Shown here in pieces: positions 20,157-22,699 of a stretch of DNA of 42,022 bases; within the stretch, counting starts at the first letter, position 1, and the number at the start of each line of letters is the position of its first letter. The DNA is from an uncultured bacterium. Its GTDB lineage: Bacteria > Patescibacteriota > Minisyncoccia > Phycocordibacterales > UBA918. Position numbers and translations under genes: made by a program. The notes beneath the pieces were generated by a model. That model saw only the letters and a program-made list of their open reading frames with translations, was not told where the DNA came from and ran no database searches. The DNA is taken from NCBI GenBank assembly GCA_913050645.1, contig CAJXAG010000003.1, positions 1 to 42,022 of the forward strand, written 5' to 3'.

Positions 20157-20801
20157 ATGAATACTCACAAACTGTTATTTGTAGGCCTTGCAATCATTGT
20201 GCTTGGGCTTATTGCCTACTTTGCAATCCCGGCGTCAGACGATGTGCCAAATGATGCAACAAACCAACAGGATACAGATATTGTATCGGAAAAAGATAGT
20301 GGTAGCGGATCGTTCCTCTCGCTTATGGAACGTGATGAAAATATCGCCTGCACCTTTACTTCAGATACAGAGGGTACGAAGTCGGCTGGTATGTTTTATT
20401 ACAGCGATGGAAAATATCGTGTTGAGTCAGAAACAGAAACTGATGGTATGACGTTTACCTCGAACATGATTGGTTTAGAAGACAAGTCATATATTTGGGG
20501 AACGTCACCACAGGGAGATATTGCGCTGGTTGTTGCAAACGATGCTGTAGATGCAGAGGAGTCAGCACGTGAATTTGCTGATAGACAAGAGGAATCCACA
20601 ATCGACCTAGAGGAAGGTGTGGTGTATAACTGCAACCCATGGCAACCAGTTCCAGCTCTGTTGGAACCTCCAAGCGATATAGAGTTTATGGATATGCAGG
20701 AAATGTTAGAAAGCATGTTTTCTGGAGAAATGCCGGATATGCCAGAAGGATTTGAAATGCCTGAGGGGATGGAAATTCCCGCTGATCTACAGATGCAATA
20801 A
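20157..20801 (+). CDS. hypothetical membrane-anchored extracytoplasmic protein
   Basis: 214 aa; N-terminal TM anchor, Asp/Glu-rich linker, Met/Glu/Pro-rich C-terminus. Confidence 0.65.
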   Translation: MNTHKLLFVGLAIIVLGLIAYFAIPASDDVPNDATNQQDTDIVSEKDSGSGSFLSLMERDENIACTFTSDTEGTKSAGMFYYSDGKYRVESETETDGMTFTSNMIGLEDKSYIWGTSPQGDIALVVANDAVDAEESAREFADRQEESTIDLEEGVVYNCNPWQPVPALLEPPSDIEFMDMQEMLESMFSGEMPDMPEGFEMPEGMEIPADLQMQ

Positions 20802-20802
20802 C

Positions 20803-20830
20803 TTGCACAAAAAAGAAAACTTGTTACTAT
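20803..20830 (+). promoter_or_regulatory. promoter of the leuA leader transcript
   Basis: TTGCAC(20803-20808)-N16-TACTAT(20825-20830), extended -10 TGT; predicted start about 20837. Confidence 0.65.
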
Positions 20831-20838
20831 CAAAACGT

Positions 20839-20910
20839 ATGACACATACACACACAAATAACCTGCTGGGGCTCCTTCGAAATAGTCGTGGAGCATTCGT
20901 GTGTGTATAG
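20839..20910 (+). CDS. leuL: leucine-rich leader peptide (23 aa)
   Basis: MTHTHTNNLLGLLRNSRGAFVCV*; Leu codons ctg ctg ggg ctc ctt at 20863-20877. Confidence 0.75.
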   Translation: MTHTHTNNLLGLLRNSRGAFVCV

Positions 20911-20970
20911 TTTCTCTTAAACAAAGTATGTAGATACAAACCCTCCACGAAAATGGAGGGTTTGTTTGTG
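20839..20970 (+). promoter_or_regulatory. ribosome-mediated transcription attenuator upstream of leuA
   Basis: 1:2 atacacacac/gtgtgtgtat + gctcc/ggagc; 2:3 tcgtggag/ctccacga; 3:4 acaaaccctcca/tggagggtttgt. Confidence 0.75.
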
Positions 20971-20993
20971 TCAATGGTGACATATATGTTCTT

Positions 20994-21112
20994 CCCGTTA
21001 GAGATCAGGAGTGTACATACTTCTGATGGGTAAAACTAACGGACTGTTCTTTAAAACTGAAAAAGAGAATCTTTTGTTGGGAGTGAAGCATAACGTTTCA
21101 ATCTCTAACGGG
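20994..21112 (+). promoter_or_regulatory. second long-range structured leader segment before leuA
   Basis: cccgttagagat(20994-21005)/atctctaacggg(21101-21112), 12 bp perfect; competing ctaacgg copy at 21036-21042. Confidence 0.6.
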
Positions 21113-21136
21113 ATTCTATACAAAAGGAGAAAACAC

Positions 21137-22699
21137 ATGGATCAGGTACTCTTCTTCGATACGACGTGTCGAGATGGTAAGCAGGCACCGGGGAATAACC
21201 ACGGACCTGCAGACACGGTGCGTATTGCACATCAGGCTGCTGCACTTGGTATCAATATCTTCGAGGCAGGTTTTGCTGTTTCCTCGGAGCTTGATTTCCA
21301 GTCAGTCTCACGTGTTGCAAAAGAAGTTGATGGTATCGTGCCGTGCTCACTTGCACGCGCAAGCACAAAGGATATTGAAGCAGCTGCACGTGCACTTGAG
21401 GGTGCGCTTGTTTCGCCACGTATCCATACGTTTATAGCAACTAGTGATATTCATATGGAACATAAGCTGCAGATGAGTCGTGATCAGGTGCTTGAAAAAG
21501 TTGCGGATTCGGTACGGTTCGCACGGACATTTGTGGATGATGTGGAGTGGTCTGCGGAGGATGCGATGCGCAGTGACTTTGAGTTTCTTAAGCTCGCGGT
21601 GCGTGAAGCAATTTTCGCCGGTGCACGCACGGTCAACGTGCCAGACACGGTGGGATATCTCATGCCCGGTATGATTCGAGAGAAAGTTTCTCAGCTTATT
21701 GCTGAGGTACCTGAGATTAACGAGTACGGTGTGGTTGTGTCGGTACATTGTCATGATGATCTGGATTGTGCTACCGCCAACACGCTTGCAGGTATCGAAG
21801 GTGGTGCGCGGCAAGTTGAGTGTACGATCAACGGTATTGGCGAGCGTGCAGGGAATACGCACTATGCACCGGTTGTCATGGCACTGTCATTGCATAAAGA
21901 CTACTTTGGTGTGACGCACAGTATCAACACGCAAGCTATTGGTGATACAGCGCGGTTGCTTTCATCAGTGCTCCAAAAGCCAGTGCCGAGCAATTTGCCC
22001 GTTGTGGGTGAAAATGTATTTGCGCATGGCTCAGGTATTCATCAACATGGTGTCAGTGGCAACACACAAACGTATGAGATCATGACACCCGATTCGGTTG
22101 GTTGGAAAGCTGAAGGGTTTCCACTTTCGTCCCAGTCTGGTCGTCGCGGCCTTTCTGAGCGTTTGCGCCTGCTGGGGTACGAGCTTGGCGAGAATGAGCT
22201 GCGCGTTGTGTATGATCGCTTTGAGTCGTATGCGACAGGACGCAGTCTCGTTTCCAACAATGAGCTGCATATGCTCATGCAGCAACATCGGTGTGGGGTT
22301 GACCATGCTGCACATCGCATCGTGCTTGATGATATCTCGTATGCAAAAGTAGGTGATGTTGTTGGAGCAAGTGTAACACTCTGCTATGGGGGAGTGATGC
22401 ATCATGGTAATGGGCGTGGTGCGGGTCCGTTTGCAGCAGCAAAACAAGCTTTGTCGGAAGCATTGCGTGCATGTGATGTTTCACTTGCTGATATTTCGCT
22501 TGTACACTATGACCTTGAGAAAGGAGAAGGTGGTGCAGATGCAATCGGACAGGCACACATTACAGTCCAAAGTGAAACCATGACTGGCTTTGGGTATGCA
22601 GAAAATGTCGATACAGTACTTGCAAGTGTCCAGGCATATGTACAGGCGGTGAATCACTTGTTGCTTGTGGGGATTCCAAAAGATCAGGTGGATGTGTGA
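21137..22699 (+). CDS. leuA: 2-isopropylmalate synthase
   Basis: ATG at 21137 with SD aaaaggagaaa; 'DTTCRDGKQAPGNN', 'HCHDDLDCATANTLAGIEGGARQVECTINGIGERAGN'; C-terminal LeuA regulatory-type domain. Confidence 0.93.
   Translation: MDQVLFFDTTCRDGKQAPGNNHGPADTVRIAHQAAALGINIFEAGFAVSSELDFQSVSRVAKEVDGIVPCSLARASTKDIEAAARALEGALVSPRIHTFIATSDIHMEHKLQMSRDQVLEKVADSVRFARTFVDDVEWSAEDAMRSDFEFLKLAVREAIFAGARTVNVPDTVGYLMPGMIREKVSQLIAEVPEINEYGVVVSVHCHDDLDCATANTLAGIEGGARQVECTINGIGERAGNTHYAPVVMALSLHKDYFGVTHSINTQAIGDTARLLSSVLQKPVPSNLPVVGENVFAHGSGIHQHGVSGNTQTYEIMTPDSVGWKAEGFPLSSQSGRRGLSERLRLLGYELGENELRVVYDRFESYATGRSLVSNNELHMLMQQHRCGVDHAAHRIVLDDISYAKVGDVVGASVTLCYGGVMHHGNGRGAGPFAAAKQALSEALRACDVSLADISLVHYDLEKGEGGADAIGQAHITVQSETMTGFGYAENVDTVLASVQAYVQAVNHLLLVGIPKDQVDV

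Follow-up and report, generated by a model that had tools for sequence, protein, structure and literature searches.

The enterobacterial leu, trp and ilv attenuators (Rfam Leu_leader, Trp_leader) are among the known systems closest in kind to the leader described here. Leaders upstream of alphaproteobacterial leuA genes (L006-L085 in our set) encode peptides of the form ...LLLLSRP. In the actinobacterial LEU element the Leu codons and the Shine-Dalgarno sequence of leuA base-pair in a pseudoknot, and translation-coupled control has been proposed (PMC1262725). For the S. aureus ilv-leu genes, the accessible part of the report describes a leucine-rich attenuator peptide that controls genes for branched-chain amino-acid synthesis (PMC5794164). 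Amino-acid sensing in the ultra-small, amino-acid-dependent Patescibacteria is largely unknown, and no report of leader-peptide attenuation in these bacteria was found in the full-text literature searched, a scope that left out most subscription journals.

The window analysed here, 42,022 nucleotides, is the complete contig C3 of a genome of 1.0 Mb and 91% completeness, which is taken to belong to Patescibacteria on account of its small size, the genes it carries and its relatives. The data were sequences and their comparison only, with no transcript, reporter or proteomic data. An earlier note on this DNA had read the region upstream of leuA as a leucine attenuator, and homologous leaders with gene-matched codon runs and covarying 2:3 pairs supported that reading, the response to leucyl-tRNA being inferred. 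We hold with high confidence that 20839-20970 is a ribosome-mediated transcription attenuator through which Leu-tRNA supply controls a solitary leuA, and that it belongs to a Patescibacteria family whose members share one RNA scaffold and carry codons for Leu, Ile or Phe according to the gene that follows. The features of the locus are as follows.

20803-20830, forward strand: candidate leader promoter, TTGCAC (20803-20808), 16 nt, TACTAT (20825-20830), then 8 nt to the leader ATG; layout common in the family, window copy a weak match.
20839-20910, forward strand: leader peptide ORF MTHTHTNNLLGLLRNSRGAFVCV, by direct translation; homologous peptides NLLGLL...GGxxAxV in relatives.
20846-20908, forward strand: 1:2 protector hairpin, outer stem 20846-20855/20899-20908, inner stem 20871-20875/20890-20894; fold of -26.5 kcal/mol and family pairing counts.
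20863-20877, forward strand: regulatory codons CTG CTG GGG CTC CTT (LLGLL), also part of region 1; the run is conserved and its residue suits the downstream gene across the family.
20886-20910, forward strand: region 2, the antiterminator 5' arm, which encodes the conserved C-terminal portion of the leader; from alignment A1 and pair counts.
20932-20950, forward strand: region 3, antiterminator 3' arm and terminator 5' arm; a ACAAGCCAGCTCTTCACC-like block conserved in relatives that covaries with region 2.
20936-20975, forward strand: 3:4 terminator hairpin of 12 bp (20936-20947/20954-20965) with T-rich tail TTGTGTC; -19.5 kcal/mol, with 3:4 hairpins across the family.
21046-21056, forward strand: boxA-like GTTCTTTAAAA between terminator and leuA; similar motif in the same place in L087, L089, L004, L096, L099 and others.
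21124-21129, forward strand: leuA Shine-Dalgarno sequence AAGGAG, 7 nt before the ATG at 21137.
21137-22699, forward strand: leuA, 520 aa, a short-type 2-isopropylmalate synthase homologue with all three domains (PF00682, PF22617, PF08502).

Compared with the described systems, the window leader shares a Leu-run peptide upstream of a short-type leuA with the alphaproteobacterial leaders, from which it differs in the C-terminus of the peptide. As in the LEU element, a leader peptide with Leu codons precedes leuA and alternative RNA folds are available, but the terminator hairpin of the window lies more than 160 nt before the gene. The likeness to S. aureus ilv-leu, as far as the accessible part of that report goes, consists of a leucine-rich attenuator peptide and branched-chain genes, without any sequence relationship being implied, whereas the genome of the window is without the branched-chain pathway. 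Unlike the enterobacterial attenuators, the window leader has no Rfam match at the gathering score, has its own conserved region 2 and region 3 sequences, has a leader ORF that appears nearly leaderless, and is followed by a lone gene instead of a leuABCD operon.

Direct re-checking found the sequences and coordinates given earlier for the ORF, regions 1-4 and the outer stem to be correct throughout. The inner 1:2 pairing of gctcc (20871-20875) with ggagc (20890-20894) was confirmed, as was the complementarity of tcgtggag (20886-20893) in region 2 with ctccacga (20943-20950) in region 3. The 2:3 pairing was present as the earlier note had claimed, but its extent had been understated, as it forms a long interrupted helix of -19.9 kcal/mol. 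Leu occupies four of the five codons of the regulatory run, a run that is kept in relatives and that the 1:2 protector hairpin overlaps. None of 200 dinucleotide shuffles folded as well as the segment 20820-20980 (z -4.76), and the duplex between leader and region 3 reached -19.8 kcal/mol, against -9.1 +/- 2.6 in mononucleotide shuffles (p ~0.001). With a ribosome placed over the first two Leu codons and transcription advanced to 20953, the 2:3 helix was about as stable as the terminator alone (-19.9 and -19.5 kcal/mol), and free window RNA folded into the 1:2 form (-26.5 kcal/mol). These energetics are consistent with switching. The 3:4 hairpin is itself strong, but its tail is T-rich and interrupted, with no clean T run, and a strict terminator scan did not pick up the hairpin because of this weak tail. 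Five of the 357 short ATG ORFs in the window have four Leu in five codons; such ORFs are not rare in themselves, and so the decisive evidence must be comparative.

Since neither a leuA (about 38 other genomes of the genus searched) nor a homologue of the leader (blastn, 39 genomes of the genus) was found, covariation among close relatives could not be assessed and wider family members were used instead. Related leaders were identified upstream of LeuA genes of Patescibacteria (e.g., peptides MKLSTLNLLGLLLTTQTGGGLASVHNLESRK, MKSSTINLLGLLLALKNGGGLARAKIN and MIKQSNNLLALLSLNIHGGDFACA) and also before a second, distant LeuA type that is about 25% identical to the window LeuA. In DNA alignments of these leaders region 2 (GGTGGAGGTCTTGCTCGTG) and region 3 are conserved. 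A leave-one-out covariance model built from nine leaders, with the window excluded, matched window positions 20851-20977 at 47.5 bits (E 6.5e-9), the runner-up in the window reaching just 13.4 bits. The ten-leader model R1, in which the window is included, gave hits in 56 of 399 genomes from the window's order and in 5 of 294 genomes sampled across the phylum. Weak matches (25-33 bits) before M20 peptidases (G247, G099, G212) were not counted. The leuA genes of leuBC-bearing Patescibacteria genomes (L105-L107) lacked a leader of this type.

Covariation was examined in two sets of leaders. In the ten-leader alignment the 15-pair 2:3 helix was 92% paired, against 33-47% when slid by one to three columns, and its covariation score exceeded those of all 500 shuffles. 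Across 58 distinct leaders, 2:3 was 93.2% paired (89.2 +/- 0.4 shuffled), with 43 double-changed cells where shuffles gave 14.1 +/- 2.6 and at most 23. The 3:4 hairpin had z below -1.5 in 55 of the 58, and region 2 was paired upstream, as 1:2, over 14.9 of 20 nt versus 9.2 in shuffles, the latter by pairing counts and not covariation. Several Leu leaders have Leu-Gly-Leu codons that themselves base-pair with region 2. Judged from these alignments, the mutually exclusive 2:3 and 3:4 pairings have evolutionary support. The earlier note would have been refuted by homologous leaders lacking both Leu codons and stem covariation; the comparison was run and gave the opposite result, the codon run being kept and 2:3 covarying.

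Searches of Rfam at the gathering score identified no family for the element in the window or in eight related loci. Leu_leader did not match the window even at E 10, nor any of the eight loci, and the T-box covariance model gave no window match at its gathering score or at E up to 10. Trp_leader, Phe_leader and freshwater-2 were rejected as identities for the leader, their weak Rfam matches lying far below the cut-offs. The earlier assignment to the enterobacterial trp/leu type therefore stands for the classical logic, which fits, but not for the element, which is a member of a broad family of Patescibacteria leaders that have a conserved sequence of their own and are missing from Rfam. For this family a covariance model is now offered.

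The residue encoded by the leader corresponded to the pathway of the downstream gene in 21 of 21 classifiable leaders. Leu runs precede LeuA in 13 cases (the window, G323, G181, G120, G168, G041, G042, G369, G084, G151, G725, G108 and G1015). Ile runs, seven in all, precede citramalate synthase (CimA; G042 C13, G255, G749), threonine ammonia-lyase (IlvA; G181, G070) and RidA-IlvA (G108 C43, G301 C30), and a single Phe run (MTRQTAALFFFLTTKPLSVEV) precedes prephenate dehydratase (G700). Under random dealing of labels such agreement would arise once in about 1.6 million; the leader-bearing genomes are related and are not independent events, and shared ancestry makes the true value less extreme. 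Ten of the 13 Leu leaders before LeuA were in the training set of R1, and the Ile and Phe leaders were not; because R1 was trained on Leu leaders only, it recognised the Ile and Phe leaders by their RNA scaffold and not by their codons. One locus (L089 in G088) was kept outside the 21: a Leu leader is present, its LeuA groups with those of alphaproteobacteria, and the model misses the leader. The parts of the element, their conservation, the covariation and the match of codons to genes were demonstrated, at the level of sequence comparison.

Other genes were also seen behind leaders of this family. In G281 (L232:2941-3285) the gene behind a Leu leader encodes a LeuA allosteric domain on its own (115 aa; PF08502, 2e-22), the catalytic domain being absent from that ORF. 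Many Leu and Ile leaders precede small proteins of 65-115 aa without a Pfam match (L238, L226, L230, L189, L181, L191, L188 and others), which fall into at least two sequence groups (alignments A5 and A6) and are possible amino-acid-starvation genes. An Ile-leader gene in G042 (L237:1081-3867) encodes citramalate synthase fused in one ORF to a cysteine desulfurase of NifS/IscS type, its frame and assembly being unverified. The single contig L183 (G749 C38) has five model matches; the four leaders inspected comprise two of Leu type, one of Ile type before citramalate synthase, and one of mixed Ile/Leu type before an unknown 319-aa protein. On these predicted leaders, the contig is a case of tandem use of the same sensor scaffold.

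The family also informed the start of the leader. A TTGNC-N15-19-TAnnnT layout followed by 3-11 nt to an ATG was present in 40 of 51 family leaders (0.5 expected in shuffles), the -10 box lying mostly 6-9 nt from the leader AUG, and a Shine-Dalgarno-like motif preceded the leader ORF in just 8 of the 51. As the promoter ends so close to most leader ATGs and Shine-Dalgarno motifs are few, translation of the leader probably begins at or very near the 5' end of its mRNA (leaderless or nearly so), which would explain the absent ribosome-binding site of the leader ORF. The window promoter fails the strict layout pattern and has a poor -35 box, and no sigma-70 site there passed a strict scan. The start site near 20837 proposed in the earlier note is supported by the family layout, to which the window fits loosely, and remains an inference from sequence patterns.

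Based on these observations, we propose that RNA polymerase would start a few bases 5' of the AUG at 20839 and that the leader would be translated from a (nearly) leaderless 5' end. When Leu-tRNA is plentiful, the ribosome would reach the stop codon (20908-20910) and cover region 2, so that region 3 would pair with region 4 and transcription would end near 20965-20975. When Leu-tRNA is scarce, the ribosome would stall on CTG CTG GGG CTC CTT and cover region 1, region 2 (20886-20910) would capture region 3 (20932-20950) ahead of the synthesis of region 4, and the polymerase would continue into leuA. Without translation, the 1:2 hairpin would form and termination would win. The start site, leaderless translation, stalling, termination and induction of leuA are all inferred. 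The switching logic is known, of the classical trp/leu type; novelty lies in the lineage in which it occurs, in the family of RNAs, in the near-leaderless form of the leader ORF and in the orphan targets.

The leuA product has what is expected of a LeuA, with HMGL-like, post-catalytic and allosteric domains and the catalytic motifs RDGKQ, HCHDD and GIGERAG retained; its enzymatic activity is inferred. It scored 532.4 bits against NF002086 (cut-off 532) and fell under the cut-off of TIGR00973. It is 50% identical to the nearest relative found, and in the LeuA tree it groups with the leader-bearing L087, L088 and L109 (97/99 support). LeuA is patchy in the order, being present in 21 of 299 genomes with distant homologues counted in, and a LeuA scan of viral_contigs identified no relative. 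That leuA is isolated, as had been claimed for the window, holds genome-wide: no aconitase-type LeuC (PF00330), LeuB-type dehydrogenase (PF00180), IlvD (PF00920) or IlvE-type aminotransferase (PF01063) was detected in this 91%-complete genome, and control genomes were positive in each search. Among 20 leader-bearing genomes, IlvD was found in none and an aconitase-family gene in just one (G301). Incompleteness could explain some of these gaps, not those of all leader-bearing genomes at once. With the pathway partners undetected, it appears that leucine supply governs an orphan enzyme.

Other explanations of the locus were considered. The hairpin at 20936-20965 might merely be the terminator of the upstream gene (20157-20801), with the Leu-rich ORF and alternative pairings coincidental; it lies 135 bp past that gene's stop codon, and Leu-rich ORFs occur in the window at the frequency given above. 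We give this reading almost no credence and regard it as already refuted by the conserved family, on comparative grounds, as dozens of genomes have homologous leaders in front of unrelated genes, with codon runs, regions 2 and 3 and covariation conserved, and the leave-one-out match to the window is strong (E 6.5e-9). It is also very improbable, in our estimation, that the leader works without attenuating termination, through translation-coupled control at the leuA ribosome site or through Rho-dependent termination. The weak U-tract, the structured 120-bp segment directly before the leuA Shine-Dalgarno sequence and the actinobacterial pairing of Leu codons with that of leuA (PMC1262725) would fit such a route, but a strong hairpin that shares region 3 is present in 55 of 58 relatives, the spacing between hairpin and gene is variable, and the segment preceding the Shine-Dalgarno sequence is outside the leader family.

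That the leader is a fossil brought in with a transferred leuA and no longer regulatory is unlikely, though less readily dismissed. It would agree with the lack of detected leuB, leuC, ilvD and ilvE homologues, with the absence of leuA from the other genomes of the genus searched, and with the 50% identity of LeuA to the nearest relative found. Against it, leader and leuA are both intact and the catalytic motifs are kept; the window sequence has diverged from its relatives and still has the codons and the 1:2, 2:3 and 3:4 pairings; and the same leader-leuA pair is kept in several other leuC-less genomes. One point against the attenuator reading itself is that the 120-bp repeated segment at 20993-21113 could hold a promoter or structure that bypasses or modifies control; none was found there, in searches that did not cover alternative promoter types.

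The family provides a set of genes, predicted to respond to leucine, isoleucine or phenylalanine, that can be tested directly. It singles out uncharacterised small proteins as possible genes of amino-acid starvation, and it raises the question of why leucine would regulate an enzyme whose pathway is absent. We speculate, with somewhat less than even confidence, that in Patescibacteria one modular near-leaderless attenuator scaffold senses the supply of Leu, Ile and Phe, presumably scavenged from a host, and that its targets are orphan enzymes of first steps and uncharacterised small proteins, not complete biosynthetic pathways, the orphan LeuA serving a non-leucine role, e.g., supplying 2-isopropylmalate for a partner or as a signal.

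Elsewhere in the window, a LOOT RNA (RF03000, 77.6 bits), which Rfam lists without a known function, was identified at 2112-2239 on the reverse strand. Between the attenuator terminator and the gene, many loci have a boxA-like motif, K-TCTTTGAMAA, possibly an antitermination or general leader signal, for which there are no functional data. The segment at 20993-21113 has 13-bp inverted ends (TCCCGTTAGAGAT/ATCTCTAACGGGA) and folds well (z -4.16). Copies were present in the same genome at C12:2198-2342 (84% identical) and C74:2065-2208 (76%) and in the genus relatives G011 and G020, and further loci share the ends only. An integron attC identity was rejected, the core sites being in the wrong orientation, and whether the segment is a mobile element or a conserved 5' UTR structure is unexplained. 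Many copies have a -10-like box just before the left end and a gene whose ATG follows immediately on the right end (CTAACGGGATGAA); with respect to leuA, the copy in the window has the reverse orientation.
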